Below, piece after piece: positions 1,106 to 54,568 of a stretch of 57,935 nt of DNA. Origin of the DNA: an uncultured Spirochaetaceae bacterium (GTDB lineage: Bacteria; Spirochaetota; Spirochaetia; Sphaerochaetales; Sphaerochaetaceae); the NCBI GenBank assembly GCA_944389505.1, contig CALXMP010000012.1, forward strand, positions 1 through 57,935, read 5' to 3'. The first letter of the stretch is position 1; each line of letters begins with the position of its first letter. The notes under the pieces were generated by a model. The model did not search any database, had not been told where the DNA came from, and saw nothing but the letters and a program-made list of their open reading frames with translations. The position numbers and the translations under genes were made by a program.

Positions 1106-1136
1106 TTGACAAGGGGGGTAAAAAGGGGGGTAAAAT
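1106..1136 (+). promoter_or_regulatory. promoter with two G6 tracts in the spacer
   Basis: TTGACA (1106-1111) and TAAAAT (1131-1136) are separated by 19 bases made of two GGGGGG blocks; the second block abuts the -10. The spacer is two bases longer than the 17-base optimum, so loss of two Gs would be expected to strengthen it. The same layout, TTGACA then a G-tract then the -10, recurs before the lipoprotein genes at 3482 and 53249. Length variation of such tracts by strand slippage is a known phase-variation mechanism in spirochaetes and other bacteria. Variation here is inferred, not seen. Confidence 0.6.
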
Positions 1137-3108: not shown

Positions 3109-3324
3109 ATGGAAGAGAAAGAGTCCCTCCCGAGAGAGCGTGCTTTTTTCATTCCGAATGAGAAGAGGCGCGAATGCCTCAGGCTTTTTTCGGAGGGTTA
3201 TGGCTATAAGAAGACTGCCCATGTGACTGGACTGAATGTGTATACGGTCCGTGATTATAAGAGGCGTTATGCACAGGGAGACTGCTCTTGGGCAGAACGG
3301 GGGCCGATTACCCCCCGTTTTTGA
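3109..3324 (+). CDS. small helix-turn-helix protein, cassette 1
   Basis: Seventy-one residues from the ATG at 3109, which has GGAGGG just upstream; an earlier ATG-like start at 3061 has none. Residues 14-61 form a homeodomain-like helix-turn-helix (NEKRRECLRLF, then GYKKTAHVTGLNVYTVRDYKRR), followed by a conserved SWAERG tail. The fold resembles the DNA-binding heads of IS3-type transposase OrfA proteins, but no transposase is present. It is nearly identical in its core to the protein at 4702 and sits in the same place, after an Ig-like lipoprotein. A regulator of the adjacent lipoprotein is plausible; a domesticated transposase head is the alternative. Its last codons form a terminator. Confidence 0.7.
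   Translation: MEEKESLPRERAFFIPNEKRRECLRLFSEGYGYKKTAHVTGLNVYTVRDYKRRYAQGDCSWAERGPITPRF
3296..3322 (+). terminator. terminator built into the 3' end of HTH gene 1
   Basis: AACGGGGG (3296-3303) pairs with CCCCCGTT (3312-3319) and runs into TTTTT. The stop codon TGA (3322-3324) lies inside the T-run, so the last codons of the gene double as a Rho-independent terminator. Confidence 0.6.
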
Positions 3325-3418: not shown

Positions 3419-3448
3419 TTGACAATGGAGAAGGAAGGGGGGTAATAT
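3419..3448 (+). promoter_or_regulatory. G6-tract promoter of the second Ig-like lipoprotein
   Basis: TTGACA (3419-3424), an 18-base spacer ending in GGGGGG, then TAATAT (3443-3448). Loss of one G would give the 17-base optimum. An inverted repeat ATTACCC (3391-3397) / GGGTAAT (3440-3446) brackets the promoter and could be an operator. Confidence 0.6.
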
Positions 3449-4701: not shown

Positions 4702-4905
4702 ATGGAAGACAAGAAGCCGTCCCTCCGGTATCGTGTTCCTAACGAAAAACGCAGGGAATGCCTAAAACTCTTTGAAGAGGGAAATGGTTATAAGAAAACC
4801 GCGAGAATCACTGGGCTGAATCTATATTCCGTCCGGGATTATCGGCGGAGGTACGCGCAGGGCGATAGTTCCTGGGCAGAAAGAGGCGAGGTTTCCGCCA
4901 GATGA
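4702..4905 (+). CDS. small helix-turn-helix protein, cassette 2
   Basis: Sixty-seven residues with a GAGGAGG Shine-Dalgarno. The core (NEKRRECLKLFEEGNGYKKT, then ARITGLNLYSVRDYRRRYAQ, then SSWAERG) is almost the same as in the 3109 protein, so the two are recent paralogs. The helix-turn-helix resembles transposase/homeodomain-like DNA-binding heads. No enzymatic domain follows. It is probably cotranscribed with the lipoprotein at 3482 through the hairpin at 4654-4683, and a terminator follows at 4913. I infer a DNA-binding regulator tied to the lipoprotein; its target is unknown. Confidence 0.7.
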   Translation: MEDKKPSLRYRVPNEKRRECLKLFEEGNGYKKTARITGLNLYSVRDYRRRYAQGDSSWAERGEVSAR

Positions 4906-5863: not shown

Positions 5864-7409
5864 ATGAGAAATTTTACCCCCCCCCCGTAGGATTATATCC
5901 CGTGCTCTCGGGCTACTGATTTTTCTGGCTATAATCACATCGTGCAGACAGAATGTCATGATTCCAATCCAGATGCCGGAAAAATGGACTGTTACGTTCA
6001 TAAGTGATCCCGAAGAAGCTATGGCAACATATACTGATACGGCTATCGGAAACTCGTATAGGCTTGACGAACCATCTTCCGTCGATGGATATGAATTCAG
6101 TCATTTCCGGCTTTCGGATGGATCAATCCTCAATGCTGGGGAGACAATCAGCTATAGTGGCAAGAATGTTACCGTATATATTGTATGGATCCCAGTGATA
6201 ACGATAGATTCCAGTACTGGTTCAGCGAATCTTATCTCTGCTGCTTTACAGAACCTGTCTGCTGGCAATTATATCATTGACCTTTCCGCCGGTTCTTACT
6301 CTGAAGAGAATGATATAGAGATCAAGACTGGCCAGAATATCGCGATAAGGGCCACCTCTGCATCTGAAACGATCGTCAGCAGCGCTATAAAGCTTCAGGA
6401 AGGATCATCTGTTGCTCTTGAGAATATTACTCTCCAGAAAGCCGATGCTTCTTTGATTGAAGCAGAGACCGGCGGAGTTGCTATCAGTGTGGATTCCTCA
6501 ATTCTGAATGCCTCAGGGACTGGAAGAGGAATAGATGTAACTGTTCCAGTAGGTTCAACAGGAGATGAAGTCCATATTGCTGTAAGCAATTCCGTAATAA
6601 ATGTCGCAGCTGCAGCAACAGGTCCAGTTGGGACAGCTAGGGGTATTGATATAAACAACTACACATATGAGCTATCCTCTCCATTCGCCGGTCGTCTTGA
6701 GGCACTGATCCTTGACCTCGATAATGTCAGCATCAATGACACTACAGGAGGGTCAACGATTGGTGTTTGCATTGCAAATGTTGATTATATGGATGTCGAT
6801 ATGACTGGATGCACTATCGGTCTGCAGAATATCCATTATGCGACCTGCATCGATACATGCGGAACGTCTGATAGAAGAAGCTCCGTTGATATTGATGGTT
6901 GCACCATAAAGGGCTGGTATTGCGTATATCTCCGTGATGCATGCATAGGATTCGACGTCAATGTAAAGGATTCGGATCTTACAACCATCAATACACAGAA
7001 AGGTAACAATAACGGAATCGCGGTTATGCAGATGCATGATTCTCAGGATTGCATTATTACTGCCAATGACTCTCATATGTTATTTGGAAATATTGGAGAT
7101 GAATATAGTGAAGGACTTATATTTGGATTCCAGTATAATAATGATGTCTATACAAAGGGAGGCAATTGCCGGTTTGTAATCAACGGCTGTGATTTTACTC
7201 TTAATAGACCGATGACAGCCCGGATGAAGTTTGCAGCAATCGATAACTTTACATATACCGATAATTACGTACGTAACACATATGAGATGGATTCGTATTC
7301 TATAAACAGCTTATTGAACCTTATACCAGGTACCGAGGTTTTTCCGGTAACGCAACCTTTTACAGTCGATGGAGAGACAATAGACTTTACAGAGTACTTT
7401 CTTCAATAG
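5864..7409 (+). pseudogene. phase-variable beta-helix lipoprotein, OFF at C10
   Basis: AAGGA (5851-5855) and an ATG at 5864 open a frame that meets ten Cs at 5877-5886 and stops at TAG 5888-5890. With nine or twelve Cs the frame joins the long frame ending at 7409, giving a lipoprotein of about 514 residues. Its signal reads RRIISRALGLLIFLAIITSC, with Cys27 as the lipidated residue. Without the tract, the long frame has only an ATG at 5958, which would remove the signal. After the signal comes an InlB B-repeat-like unit (WTVTFISD to VTVYIVW), then a long Ala/Ser/Ile-rich parallel beta-helix with many short D/N-rich turns. This arrangement is a typical slipped-strand switch, here in the OFF state. 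A true dead gene or sequencing error is the alternative. Confidence 0.75.
5877..5886 (+). repeat. poly-C tract (10 Cs), candidate phase-variation switch
   Basis: Ten consecutive Cs start thirteen bases after the first base of the start codon. Frame arithmetic: the ATG is in frame 2 and the lipoprotein body in frame 0 (position modulo 3), so removing one C or adding two restores the reading frame. On the opposite strand the tract reads as a G-run followed by TAAAATT, the same string seen at the -10 of the 1171 promoter. Confidence 0.8.
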
Positions 7410-48878: not shown

Positions 48879-50156
48879 TCAGTCTGCGTAATTCATCTGA
48901 TAATCCGAATCAATCTTCTCTACAGCCTCTGCAAGCTTCTCATAAGGATCTGCACCCATGATCACATCAGTGACAACAGAGCCGAATGTCGGATTGAGAA
49001 CTGTCCAGACCGGGGTTCTTGGTCTTGGTACACCGGTTTCCGCCAGCTGTTCCATGAATTTCTTGTAAGGCTCTTCCTGATACTGCGTAAGTGCTTCGGA
49101 TGAGGATTTCCTTGGCGGCAGATATCCGGAAGCCGGGCAACCGGTCATGTTTGCTTCTGTATTCGTCATGTAATCAGCGAACACAAATGCAGCCTCGGGA
49201 TCAGACGCCTTGTTTGTTATTCCTATTGTCCAGCTTCCAGTAGGTGTTCCTGCTACATGGTCATTCGATACTGGATAATATGTTACACCCCAATTGAGAT
49301 CCGGATATGTGCTCTGGAGTGTAGCGATCTGATAGCAAGTACTGAAGAGCATTGCTGACTTGCCGTCAAAGAATTCCGTCGGTGTTGGTTCAATGTTAAC
49401 AAGTTTCTCATCATAGAGCCTCTTCAGCCATGTCAGGAATTCAACTGTTTCCTCTGTATCAAGATATCCCTTGGTTGTAGATCCATCAGCGCTTATGAGA
49501 TCAGTGCCATTCTGTACAAGCATCGGAGAATAGTAATATGTGATCTGTCCGCTGTTTGTATGCATTGTACATCCGTAATGCTCTGATGTCGTAAGAGCCT
49601 TTACGACTTCATAGAATTCGTCCCATGTCCAAGCATCCTCAAGGCGTTCCGGAACAGTGATTCCGGCTTCGGCAAGAATATCCTTATTATAATAGATAGC
49701 AACAGATGATTCCCAGAGAGGAAGCGTATATAGCTTTCCATCATAGCTCCCTTGTTTCAGAGTTGAGTCAAGAAGATCAGCTTTGCTTTCTTCTGTGATC
49801 ATCTCATCCATAGGGATTATGATTCCTGCCTCTGCATATGTTGCGACAGCAGGTCCATCAACGAGTATCAGGTCAGGAAGCGAACCAGCTATTACTGCCG
49901 TATTTATCTTATCCTCGTATCCCTGTGATCCTCCTTTAGGGAATGTCACCTGCTCAACATGATAGGTTCCTGCGTATTTCTCATTGAACCCCTCAAGCAT
50001 TTCAGACCACCAGCCCTCGATTTCAGCTGTATTCTGCGGTCTCCAGACAGTTAAGTTCTTTACGCCAGATTCGGTCGACTCTTCAGAACCGCTTGCAAAT
50101 ATAGCTGCAATTCCAGCAAGCAGTAATACAAGAAGCAATGCTGACTTCTTTCTCAT
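48879..50156 (-). CDS. ABC sugar-binding protein (CUT1)
   Basis: A 425-residue extracellular solute-binding protein family 1 member. The signal ends AAIFASGSEESTESG, with no lipobox Cys, the style seen in many spirochaetal binding proteins; how it stays at the cell is not clear. DLILVDGPAVATYAEAG and LPLWESSVAIYYNKDILAEAG match the MalE-like two-lobed fold. It catches an oligosaccharide, probably a fructan or sucrose given the GH32 upstream. Strong GGAGGAG Shine-Dalgarno. Confidence 0.87.
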   Translation of the reverse strand: MRKKSALLLVLLLAGIAAIFASGSEESTESGVKNLTVWRPQNTAEIEGWWSEMLEGFNEKYAGTYHVEQVTFPKGGSQGYEDKINTAVIAGSLPDLILVDGPAVATYAEAGIIIPMDEMITEESKADLLDSTLKQGSYDGKLYTLPLWESSVAIYYNKDILAEAGITVPERLEDAWTWDEFYEVVKALTTSEHYGCTMHTNSGQITYYYSPMLVQNGTDLISADGSTTKGYLDTEETVEFLTWLKRLYDEKLVNIEPTPTEFFDGKSAMLFSTCYQIATLQSTYPDLNWGVTYYPVSNDHVAGTPTGSWTIGITNKASDPEAAFVFADYMTNTEANMTGCPASGYLPPRKSSSEALTQYQEEPYKKFMEQLAETGVPRPRTPVWTVLNPTFGSVVTDVIMGADPYEKLAEAVEKIDSDYQMNYAD

Positions 50157-50170
50157 ATGATCTCCTCCTT

Positions 50171-51832
50171 TTATATTTCCCAGATGCTTTTCAGCATTCT
50201 GATTTCATTGAGAATGACCTTTGACTTGTCCATAAAATCCGCTGTGGCAAAACGGGTAGGGGATTCTATGAAATATGGCTTAGAGCCATATATAAGCCCG
50301 TCATTGCCGAATACGTGAACAACTGCCTTATCAACGTAGATAACGAGATCCTCTATCAAATCGATTTCAGTAGATAATTCGATCTTTGTCTTGTCATCTT
50401 TATTTCCGTAAACGAATTCCAGCTTCCCTGCGTTGAATTGAAGACCTATATGCATTGAATCATCTTCTGCGAAGACAAGCCGGAAATCCGTATTGCTTAA
50501 GAATCTTACCCGCCAGATGTAAGGTGCAGAGGCTGGGGATGATACGGCATTTTCTTCAAGCTCTTTCAGAGCCTGATGCGGTGATAATCTTAATCCATTA
50601 CTGCCAACGCTGCAGATCAATGGGATGCTCATAGCGCCATTGGATGAGCAGAGTTTCGGATTGAATTCATTATAAGTATCAACGATCCAGGAGAATGCAA
50701 TCTCCTCCGATTCATGCCTGAATAACTGAATAGCATAACTGCCGGTTCCGAAATCAATTTCCTGGATCTTTTTAACTGAAAGAGAGAATCCATCAAGTCT
50801 TCCGATATAAGCACGCATACGACGCTTTTTACCATTCGTACCGGGCTTATCCTGAAGAGAGACGATCAGAGCAGAATCTCCTGATTGATTTTCTATGAAA
50901 TTCGCACATTCAAATGATGCGCAATCCGTGGCTTCCGGATCCTGTAGCATAATCCCTGAATATACCCACTTTCCTTCAATTTCCTTATAGACAAGCACTG
51001 AGCATATGCCATTAAGGGTTGATGCAATAAGGAGAACTTTTTGACCATTGATGAAAGTTATCATTGGATCCCTGAAATTGAAATCATATGAAGGATTCCC
51101 AGGACTATGCTCAATTATCATCTGTTCGTTATAGGTCTTTATGCCATCACATATTGCTTCCGCCTGATATTCCTTTGTAGTGTTATCCCTGATTTTTCTT
51201 GAGAAGCTTCTTGTTAAATAAAGCTTTATCAGGCCATTTTCAACCAGTGCAGAACCGCTATATGCGCCTCCTTTGTGGCTTATGTCATACATGAGCTCGT
51301 CCTGCGGAGTCATAGCTATTGGCATATGACGCCATGATAAGAGATTGTTGCTGACAGCATGTCCCCAATATGTGTTCCCCCATTTCTGCGAAAAGGGGTT
51401 CATCTGATAGAACATATGATAAAAACCCTGATAAAAACAGAGTCCATTTGGATCATTCATCCAGTTGCGTATTGTCGAGAAATGGATCTGGTTTCTTGAG
51501 GGTTCTTCATACAGCTTTCCGATTGATTTTCCTGAATAAGTCTTACCTGTACTGAAATCAAGAAAAGTTACGCCTGTATTCAGGATGGTTCTGGAATCAG
51601 AATAAAGATATGCATATGGTATCTCTGCGTTCTCTGCTTCCAGCGTATAGAGATGATCCGAAAGGATTTCCAGATCATATTTCCATCCATTAGGGGAATC
51701 AACCGATATAACAGCAGAAAGATTATTCCCGATATACAGTCTGACTGAACCTTTCTTGTATCCGGAAGAGGGGATGGAAAGGAGCGCAATCAGTGTATTT
51801 TCTCTGGAATCAAAGACAATCTTATGTGCCAT
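50171..51832 (-). CDS. glycoside hydrolase family 32 (sucrase/fructanase)
   Basis: A 553-residue GH32 enzyme. The nucleophile Asp127 is in WMNDPNG; the RDP motif (FNFRDPMI) holds the transition-state stabiliser; the acid/base Glu is in DCASFECANF. About 110 residues come before the catalytic part, longer than usual. No signal peptide, so it acts in the cytosol on imported sucrose or short fructans. It overlaps the ROK regulator by 11 bases. Exact substrate not determined by sequence. Confidence 0.87.
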   Translation of the reverse strand: MAHKIVFDSRENTLIALLSIPSSGYKKGSVRLYIGNNLSAVISVDSPNGWKYDLEILSDHLYTLEAENAEIPYAYLYSDSRTILNTGVTFLDFSTGKTYSGKSIGKLYEEPSRNQIHFSTIRNWMNDPNGLCFYQGFYHMFYQMNPFSQKWGNTYWGHAVSNNLLSWRHMPIAMTPQDELMYDISHKGGAYSGSALVENGLIKLYLTRSFSRKIRDNTTKEYQAEAICDGIKTYNEQMIIEHSPGNPSYDFNFRDPMITFINGQKVLLIASTLNGICSVLVYKEIEGKWVYSGIMLQDPEATDCASFECANFIENQSGDSALIVSLQDKPGTNGKKRRMRAYIGRLDGFSLSVKKIQEIDFGTGSYAIQLFRHESEEIAFSWIVDTYNEFNPKLCSSNGAMSIPLICSVGSNGLRLSPHQALKELEENAVSSPASAPYIWRVRFLSNTDFRLVFAEDDSMHIGLQFNAGKLEFVYGNKDDKTKIELSTEIDLIEDLVIYVDKAVVHVFGNDGLIYGSKPYFIESPTRFATADFMDKSKVILNEIRMLKSIWEI

Positions 51833-53078
51833 AGCTGATTACCCTTGCATTCTTTCTCTTGATGTATTTAGCTGCATCCTGCAGATACATATCTATTGCT
51901 ACAGCGACGGCACCAAGGACCGAAGGCTCGATTACGAACCCAGGCTGAACAGCAGATATCCATGTACCGCTCAGTGTGCTGAATCTGATCTGCAGCCTTT
52001 CGTAGACATATGATGGAACATTTTCCCTGACTGTATCCTTGATCTTCTCCAGAAGCAGATCTTTTCCTGCGGTGAGGATATCAGTTATTACTATTACATC
52101 TGGATTCAGCATGTTCACTGCATTTGTCAATGCGATACCAAGAAGATATCCGAGTCTTTCAACTCTGCTGCGCGCATAGCAGTCTCCATTCTCCGCAGCA
52201 GAGAAGATCATATGCAGATTGATATCAGCAGAATCCGAAAGAATTGAATCATCGGGAAGATTCTCAATGAAATCATTCAAGAATGCAGATGCGGATGCAG
52301 AGTCATTCAGCCTGGAATATATGCCTTTCTCTTCATCGAATATGATATTCTCGCCGATTTCACCAGCAATACCAAAAGCTCCAACAACCGGTTCATCATT
52401 GATGATAAGGCTTGAATGAAGATGGTCACCTGCAAGAAGATGGAAAAGGACATTGCAGTCATGATTCCCGAACCACCATTCAGCCAAGGCACCAGCTTTT
52501 GCATCGTTCTTGAAATAAATAGGAATGTTTGAGTTCTCACGGATTTCCTTCGCTATGCTTATAAGTTCATCCTTCCCATCAGCCGTATACAGGATGCTTC
52601 CCGATTTCCCGACATAAGGACTTGGAACAGAAGCTCCAGCTGATATGATATTGGGATATTCAAAGACAAGCCTATTGATTGTGTCGCTTATGATATGTAT
52701 CGCATCCTCATATCTGTCATGAAGTGAAATCTCTTTTGTCTCATAATGAGAACAGACACCTTTAAGAGAGAATACGCCAAAAAGGGCAGAAGTCCACGTG
52801 ATCCTGATTCCAATAAACTGCACGCCGCTTTCATTTAACGCTATTGGAATGACGCGTTTGCCATTTAGATTCTTCTCAGAAGACTTTTCAAGAACTACCC
52901 CTTCATCTATGAGATTGTTGACGATCTTCGAGATTGATGCCTGCGTAAGATTCATAGCCTTTGCAAGTTCTGTCCTTGGGCATGCACCGTTCTTCATCAG
53001 ATACTTTACTAAGGCCGATCTATTATGAAGCATCAGATCGTTCTCGTTTGATCCTTTCTGAGATAGGATAAATGGCAT
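51822..53078 (-). CDS. ROK-family transcriptional regulator
   Basis: A 418-residue ROK protein with an N-terminal winged helix (ACPRTELAKAMNLTQASISK) and a sugar-kinase-like body (GAFGIAGEIGENIIFDEEKG, where the usual CGxxGC zinc site is replaced). Members such as Mlc/NagC/XylR repress sugar operons. It is the first gene of the fructan operon and so probably autoregulates it through the inverted repeat at 53099-53128. The ATP-binding residues are not clearly kept, so kinase activity is doubtful. Confidence 0.82.
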   Translation of the reverse strand: MPFILSQKGSNENDLMLHNRSALVKYLMKNGACPRTELAKAMNLTQASISKIVNNLIDEGVVLEKSSEKNLNGKRVIPIALNESGVQFIGIRITWTSALFGVFSLKGVCSHYETKEISLHDRYEDAIHIISDTINRLVFEYPNIISAGASVPSPYVGKSGSILYTADGKDELISIAKEIRENSNIPIYFKNDAKAGALAEWWFGNHDCNVLFHLLAGDHLHSSLIINDEPVVGAFGIAGEIGENIIFDEEKGIYSRLNDSASASAFLNDFIENLPDDSILSDSADINLHMIFSAAENGDCYARSRVERLGYLLGIALTNAVNMLNPDVIVITDILTAGKDLLLEKIKDTVRENVPSYVYERLQIRFSTLSGTWISAVQPGFVIEPSVLGAVAVAIDMYLQDAAKYIKRKNARVISYGT

Positions 53079-53187: not shown

Positions 53188-53215
53188 TTGACAAATACCC
53201 GGGGGGGGGTATATT
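53188..53215 (+). promoter_or_regulatory. G9-tract promoter of a surface lipoprotein
   Basis: TTGACA (53188-53193), 16 bases ending in nine Gs (53201-53209), then TATATT (53210-53215). One more G gives the 17-base optimum, so tract length should tune or switch transcription. Confidence 0.65.
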
Positions 53216-53248
53216 CACAGGTGTATTGATATGCCACAGGAGGGATAA

Positions 53249-54568
53249 ATGAAGAGACAGATCAAGCTTTTTGCGGTATTGGCAATTGTTCTTGCTGCAG
53301 GAGCATCGTGCAATAATAATCCTTTGGGTGATCTTCCATTATGGGTTGTTCTTGGGCCATGCTATGCAGGTCATACATGGGAACTTGAATCCCATAAAGA
53401 ACCGACATGCATGGAAACGGGCGAAGATGTATATGTATGCTCTGTGTGCGGGAAAGAGAAGACGGATATTCTGGCAAAGATTCCGCATGCATTCGGAGAT
53501 TATCCAAATGAATGTATCTACTGTCATAATCTGTTCTATTCATCATTGGATGAATTCAATGAAAAAGTGACCCTTGAAAATGCCAAGGGCAAGATTGTCG
53601 AGGTAGCGCTGGGAAACCTGGATTATTCAGATATCGAATATGAAGAGCATAATTCAGGATATAAAGGGAATGGACTTCTTATCGGACGATTGCCAGGCGG
53701 TGATATAGAACCTCTTAACAGATATAACGCAGAACCAGCGGAGAAGGGTGAATATACATTTATTTTCAAGGACGGGACAATTAATTCAAGCTCGAACGGA
53801 TATTCTAGTATTGATAACATCAACGGCTCTGTTATCTATATGCTCATTCCTGGAAACAGCAGCGTGACTTTTGAGAATGTTGTATTCAATAATGTCGTAA
53901 GCTTTGGAATCCAGAACTATACATCCCCGTGGAGCTATCTTGATTCAATCAGATTCGAAAACTGTATCTTTAACGGACTTGTTGTAGGCTATTCACCGGC
54001 GGATAATCTTGTTTTCAATGGCTGCACGTTCAACGAATATCTCAATGGGTATCAAGATGTGGGAACATTCAACTCCTCCAATAATTCCAATCCTATATGG
54101 ATGAGGTCAGGGAAACCCAGTTATTCTGGTGAGCCTTTAGTAGTTTCGATGAAAACTGTGGTTTTCACAAATAATACAGTAACGAGTTCCCGTCCTGTCA
54201 AATTTGAACGTATCGGACAGCTTAGTGAGGCACTTGGGTATACAGCAACATTGACTATCCTTGATAATCAATTCGATATGTCTTGTTCGAATGATGCCGA
54301 TGTGTCAGAGGAAGAGAAGCATATGGCATTGTTCTTAGGGCAGCAAGATAATACCAGCAAATTCATACTTTATGACGATGGAAACAAAGTAAATGACGGG
54401 ATTCCTATGTATACTTCGATGCTTCCGGATTCTGATACAACATCAGGTGGAACATATTATTTCGAAGTTCTAGGAACAAGAATTCTCGACAGAAACGGGA
54501 ACCCGAAGGAGATTACTGCAAGGGTCTGGAAGTCACTGTCAGAAGAATTCGTGATGAGATCGCTATAA
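53249..54568 (+). CDS. beta-helix surface lipoprotein with a Cys-rich N-terminal motif
   Basis: A 439-residue lipoprotein: signal ending LAAGASC, lipidated Cys21; AGGAGGG Shine-Dalgarno. Residues 45-95 carry a Cys/His-rich segment (HTWELESHKEPTCMETGEDV, VCSVCGKEK, ECIYCH) that looks like a small zinc-binding module found in surface proteins of gut bacteria. The rest is a parallel beta-helix with Asn ladders (FENVVFNNVVSFG, FNGCTFNEY). Probably binds a host or dietary glycan or matrix; inferred. Transcription likely depends on the G9 tract. Confidence 0.75.
   Translation: MKRQIKLFAVLAIVLAAGASCNNNPLGDLPLWVVLGPCYAGHTWELESHKEPTCMETGEDVYVCSVCGKEKTDILAKIPHAFGDYPNECIYCHNLFYSSLDEFNEKVTLENAKGKIVEVALGNLDYSDIEYEEHNSGYKGNGLLIGRLPGGDIEPLNRYNAEPAEKGEYTFIFKDGTINSSSNGYSSIDNINGSVIYMLIPGNSSVTFENVVFNNVVSFGIQNYTSPWSYLDSIRFENCIFNGLVVGYSPADNLVFNGCTFNEYLNGYQDVGTFNSSNNSNPIWMRSGKPSYSGEPLVVSMKTVVFTNNTVTSSRPVKFERIGQLSEALGYTATLTILDNQFDMSCSNDADVSEEEKHMALFLGQQDNTSKFILYDDGNKVNDGIPMYTSMLPDSDTTSGGTYYFEVLGTRILDRNGNPKEITARVWKSLSEEFVMRSL

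Follow-up and report, generated by a model that had tools for sequence, protein, structure and literature searches.

Changes of promoter spacer length are known as a switch from a few pathogens. In the sections of the literature drawn on here, Treponema pallidum tp0126 carries a poly-G run between its −35 and −10 elements, with a reported optimum of 17 (PMC7864442), and in Neisseria meningitidis the level of the porA transcript tracks the number of Gs between the same two elements; the path from slippage through spacing to promoter strength is described as established for both genes (PMC3899988, PMC7864442). Poly-G runs of varying length are also described in the promoters of T. pallidum tprE, tprG, tprJ, and tprL (PMC7864442), and the vlp system of Mycoplasma hyorhinis is presented as a surface lipoprotein gene set in which each gene is switched by a homopolymer of its own promoter, a mechanism likewise treated as established (PMC10502178).

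The window analyzed here is a 57,935-nt stretch of contig CALXMP010000012.1 from an uncultured Spirochaetaceae bacterium (GCA_944389505.1), taken as a whole. At 53188–53215 it reads, directly from the sequence, ttgacaaatacccgggggggggtatatt, with the homopolymer located between the −35 and −10 elements of a single promoter (Table 1). As in tp0126, the organism is a spirochaete and the poly-G run lies in the spacer; tp0126, however, is described as a single OmpW-like gene, whereas many lipoprotein genes and two promoter classes are found here. The porA gene is likewise one porin gene, from an unrelated bacterium, in contrast to the lipoprotein gene set of this organism. The locus shares with tprE, tprG, tprJ, and tprL the presence of poly-G in promoters of spirochaete surface proteins, although the tprL run, as described, covers part of the −10 element (PMC7864442) and the run here is confined to the spacer. 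In terms of gene organization, there is a likeness to vlp, as several lipoprotein genes in this genome each have their own homopolymer promoter; the vlp run is adenine, whereas that at 53188 is guanine, and the vlp description drawn on mentions no helix-turn-helix (HTH) partner gene (PMC10502178) of the kind discussed below.

The 53188 promoter agrees with the consensus at 11 of 12 positions, has a spacer of 16 nt, and is separated by 33 nt from an ORF whose product begins with MKRQIKLFAVLAIVLAAGASC, a lipobox. The first-pass annotation, which had reported a nine-G tract between the −35 and −10 elements of a lipoprotein gene, was therefore exact on this point. Its further statement that the spacer is one G short of the optimum holds for the length of 16, the optimum of 17 being assumed and unproven. 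The protein had no match in Pfam or NCBIfam, nor among plasmids by tblastn, and its predicted structure (from a two-sequence alignment; mean pLDDT 43.5) was set aside. An ortholog in genome G033 (66% identity) has different neighbors and is preceded by TTGACA-ATCTACTA-G9-TATTGT, with a fixed part of 8 nt and a spacer of 17, such that the architecture is kept while the upstream sequence has diverged. The lipoprotein at C6:13409 is a weaker match and carries a run within its own signal-peptide codons. Divergent from the gene, genes for a ROK-type regulator, a GH32 protein, and a solute-binding protein occupy 48879–53078 on the minus strand; these seem to form a sugar-use locus with no apparent relation to the lipoprotein.

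Table 1. Promoters, genes, and sequence elements of the window, with the basis of each assignment.
Feature	Position	Strand	Basis
Class B promoter, two G6 runs, spacer 19	1106..1136	+	pattern scan, G6 set
Class B lipoprotein, 629 aa	1171..3060	+	lipoprotein rule
HTH gene product of 71 aa, next to class B lipoprotein; 48-nt gap with hairpin	3109..3324	+	
Class B promoter, G6, spacer 18	3419..3448	+	pattern scan, G6 set
Class B lipoprotein, 387 aa	3482..4645	+	lipoprotein rule
HTH gene product of 67 aa (HTH_23); 56-nt gap with hairpin	4702..4905	+	
Lipoprotein frame, C10 run (5877-5886) in signal-peptide codons; start 5864 out of frame as assembled	5864..7409	+	
−35 hexamer TTGACA	53188..53193	+	sequence, pattern scan, consensus scoring
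Spacer fixed part AATACCC, 7 nt, class A	53194..53200	+	sequence, class sorting
G9 tract, touching −10	53201..53209	+	sequence, run counts
−10 hexamer TATATT	53210..53215	+	sequence, consensus scoring
Ribosome-binding site AGGAGGG, ahead of ATG 53249	53238..53244	+	read in sequence
Accessory lipoprotein, 439 aa, in 2/48 genus genomes	53249..54568	+	ORF, lipobox, genus search

The pattern TTGACAN{5,13}G6TANNNT matches the window three times (1106, 3419, and 53188) and was absent from 100 dinucleotide shuffles. Runs of G7 by themselves are not unusual (7 overlapping matches against a shuffle mean of 4.0, with 17 of 100 shuffles reaching 7). Across the whole genome, run lengths are bimodal: there are 70 runs of exactly G6, 4 of G7, and then 19 of G8–G12, mostly G9 or G10, which argues that long runs are kept in this genome. 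All 19 long runs (G≥8) were inspected. Twelve sit between TTGACA and a −10-like hexamer; eleven of these precede a lipoprotein gene, whose signal-peptide frame is broken in one case (L025), and the twelfth lies at a contig end (L039). Of the remainder, one run is found about 90 nt ahead of a lipoprotein gene with no clear −35 element (L016), one is a sense-strand C run ahead of a lipoprotein gene (L009), two fall within lipoprotein signal-peptide codons (L028 and window 5877–5886), one precedes an exported non-lipoprotein (L040), one precedes another non-lipoprotein (L012), and the last (L023) is unassigned, such that lipoprotein genes account for 15 of the 19. At L012 (C1:308316–308326), a G11 run is positioned between TTGACT and a TATAGA-like hexamer, and the adjoining gene is one that we take to be RhuM-like. 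The background −35/−10 spacing of this genome was not learnable from TTGACA...TATAAT, which gave 4 matches against 1 for the reversed control.

The G7 form of the pattern occurs at 198 sites, summed over genomes, in 33 of 48 genomes of the genus, and the reversed pattern gave no match in the same 48. A lipoprotein test set of 60 sites comprised all listed matches in G006, G007, and G009–G014 that had not been sampled before, plus one from G015. An ORF follows 59 of them, and 55 of the 59 encode lipoproteins; the four others are L229 (a secreted non-lipoprotein), L239, L241, and L267 (cut by a contig end). By the same lipoprotein rule, 10 of 165 background ORFs in 148 kb qualify (Fisher p = 6e-37, with paralogs retained in the counts). 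Another 27 genus sites (loci L077–L105) gave 23 lipoproteins, one non-lipoprotein, one truncated gene, and two sites without an ORF. The first-pass annotation had proposed a genome-wide rule and had named as its refutation a motif no more frequent before lipoproteins than before other genes. That outcome was not obtained, and the rule is supported in one direction, from tract promoter to lipoprotein; the converse is weaker, as three of the six rule-called lipoproteins in the window have a tract promoter. These counts also bear on the idea that the runs are artefacts of poly-G sequencing or assembly. The assemblies are drafts, with a number of sites close to contig ends; the flanks are nevertheless orderly on both sides, the orientation is single, lipoproteins lie downstream, and the sites recur in 33 of 48 genomes, which makes an artefact extremely improbable.

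The G7+ sites fall into two classes according to how long the fixed part of the spacer is, with a border set after inspection of the data: at most 8 nt in class A, where it measures 7–8 nt, and at least 9 nt in class B. Among 102 distinct sites, those from other genomes having been drawn with a pattern that allows spacers up to 20, 20 are class A, with spacers of 14–18 (mostly 16–17), and 82 are class B, with spacers of 17–22 (mostly 19); 53188 belongs to class A. G9 is the commonest run length at fixed parts of 7, 8, 9, and 10 alike, and many promoters as assembled, including 53188, are off a spacing of 17–18, which counts against a spacing switch. The number of Gs differs in 24 of 33 pairs with near-identical flanks (paralogs or species; the pairs overlap and are not independent).

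Runs of exactly G6 should slip little. Ten promoter-like sites in the genus have such a run, with a spacer of 18 in eight, 19 in one, and 14 in one; a lipoprotein ORF follows nine, and the spacer-14 site, which lacks an ORF, is probably not a promoter. A spacer of 18 is thus found at 8 of 9 exact-G6 sites versus 20 of 82 unlocked class B sites (Fisher p = 2.6e-4, or 7.5e-4 after removal of one ortholog duplicate), which points to a working spacing of 18 in class B. This value is not transferable to 53188, because the exact-G6 relatives are class B. Compensation within the spacer, by which a long fixed part would be paired with a short run, was unsupported among the unlocked sites (Spearman −0.14, p = 0.15). 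In the first-pass annotation, 53188 was assigned the same architecture as the promoters at 1106 and 3419. All three do have the pattern of TTGACA, G run, and TA in common; however, 1106 and 3419 are class B promoters of the near-constant G6 kind and 53188 is a class A promoter with G9, and they are therefore not the same device.

That annotation also excluded local duplication, which is correct for 53188, as it has no more than a 29-nt core in common with one other site; most class B promoters in this genome, by contrast, are visibly duplicated blocks, with up to 145 identical nt in common. The latter would fit a reading in which all the promoters stem from the duplication of a single block, with the G run carried along as a passenger without a role. 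For class A this reading is largely refuted: the common core is just 21–29 nt, the downstream proteins are largely unrelated, and the G033 ortholog has diverged around a core that is itself retained. The recurrence of the same architecture in other families of the class also speaks against it, and we consider it highly improbable overall.

We conclude that the G9 run at 53188 is very probably a contingency tract that confers phase variation on the lipoprotein through slippage, with a consequent change in −35/−10 spacing. Slipped-strand replication errors would lengthen or shorten the G run between the −35 and −10 elements, the altered spacing would change the fit of RNA polymerase and thereby promoter strength, and expression of the 53249 lipoprotein would go up or down randomly from cell to cell. 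The same device would control some twelve lipoprotein genes of this genome and a much larger number across the genus. Slippage within one strain, and the change in transcription resulting from it, are what we infer from the architecture, conservation, and copy-to-copy variation of the sites. The architecture, its excess over chance, its association with lipoproteins, its retention in the moved G033 ortholog, and the differing G counts of near-identical copies are observed directly. Bimodal run lengths, sites throughout the genus, the lipoprotein link, differing G counts, the moved G033 ortholog, and runs in signal-peptide codons all support slippage, for which tp0126 is a precedent in a spirochaete. 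Missing mismatch repair was considered as a cause and rejected: MutS1 scores above cut-off in 46 of the 48 genus genomes, which gives no hint of a general relaxation of repair and is a point against the slippage reading. Taken as a whole, the first-pass interpretation is partly supported.

What counts against a pure spacing device is the strand bias of the runs. Such a device should take poly-C equally well, yet the poly-C version of the pattern has one match in the genus, the runs that touch the −10 element being sense-strand G 198 times and C once; spacing alone is therefore insufficient as an explanation of this bias. One possibility is that a G run of any length ensures that a weak −10 element is always preceded by G, as a C run would not. 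In a rival reading, the run would act chiefly as a fixed element for binding or structure, for example by supplying this G or a regulator site, with its length of minor importance. The contact with the −10 element, the weak TAGNNT hexamer at 73 of 102 sites, and the 13 G versus 1 C promoter-region runs in this genome would all fit a fixed element, which however need not be a pure run of at least eight Gs, nor leave G7–G8 nearly absent. Nor is a long run indispensable, as the exact-G6 sites with lipoprotein ORFs demonstrate, and the G count of near-identical copies varies. We regard a mainly fixed element as unlikely and retain the slippage reading.

Signal-peptide codons provide a second location for the runs. 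Those at L028 (C6:13736–13745) and L046 (C4:108950–108958) leave the lipoprotein frames open, and that at 5877–5886 of the window is out of frame as assembled. These G or C runs are the frame-switching counterparts of the promoter runs, and a smaller set of lipoproteins would be switched by them.

The two classes also differ in what follows the lipoprotein gene. In the first set of genus sites, an HTH gene of about 67 codons directly follows the class B lipoprotein at 13 of the 17 sites with room for it (one with a broken lipoprotein) and a class A lipoprotein at 0 of 9. In a second set, retrieved after the class border was chosen, the gene is present at 5 of the 9 class B sites that could be used (a tenth was not closed) and at 0 of 10 class A sites, giving 18 of 26 versus 0 of 19 for both sets (Fisher p = 1.1e-6, with orthologs retained). 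It also follows the lipoprotein in 9 of 12 class B loci of named Spirochaetaceae. Besides the two in the window, class B loci with an HTH gene include L010, L031, L035, and L038.

With respect to the Pfam HTH_23 cut-off, the copy at 4702 is above by 0.2 bits and its sister at 3109 is short by 1.1. The median dN/dS of 0.15 (16 usable pairs) indicates purifying selection, and the helices of the predicted model are confident (mean pLDDT 79.6). Among solved folds, transposase and paired-type DNA-binding domains come nearest, with weak matches throughout (best E 0.82); homologs were found neither in phages nor, at E 0.01, among PDB sequences. In 19 of 24 cases, the gap between the lipoprotein and HTH genes contains a hairpin, by z-scores that are rough (mononucleotide shuffles); the stem sequences are unrelated, and a T run past the stem is present in only some gaps. 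The product is best described as a predicted DNA-binding protein that would be co-switched with its lipoprotein. It is possible, though doubtful, that the genus contains two kinds of unit, of which class B is a two-gene operon, with a slippery promoter driving the lipoprotein and, beyond an RNA hairpin, an HTH protein that may set the state of other units and so coordinate display, with the length of the fixed part setting the direction of slippage such that class A would be turned on by gaining Gs and class B by losing one. A unit that is switched on may set the state of others because the HTH copies have nearly the same recognition helix.

Matches extend beyond the genus. They were found in 43 of 139 genomes in a scan of the family, spread over 4 of 22 genera, and in 84 of 394 genomes drawn from the class, where the reversed pattern gave one match. 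The lipoprotein rule is satisfied at 11 of 20 sites sampled from other genera or families, one of the 11 (L310) being doubtful. Named genomes hold at least 119 matching stretches; among the 80 matches listed, the titles of 25 point to spirochaetes (uncultured Spirochaetaceae, Treponema, and Candidatus Ornithospirochaeta stercoripullorum), and the remainder are mainly gut Clostridia and Bacilli. Among non-spirochaete loci (L111–L224), rabbit-gut Clostridia and Bacilli have TTGACA-G8+-TA in front of genes for exported proteins or lipoproteins, with several sites per genome in Lapin-032__bin16 and Lapin-020__bin70. A near-identical TTGACA-AGTATTTAC-G9-TATACT precedes a similar exported protein at L118, L123, and L214, of which L118 and L123 are Streptococcus records. 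Viral contigs gave no match to the G8 or C8 pattern with TATAAT, and a literature search turned up no account of promoters like these for Sphaerochaeta-like or Ornithospirochaeta organisms.

The proposed switch belongs to a kind already described, with a lineage that is new for it and an unusual scale. In an uncultured genus of gut spirochaetes, many surface lipoproteins seem to have spacer-length switching as their principal control, and, if the two-unit reading is true, slippage that is random in each unit would give rise to a coordinated display.
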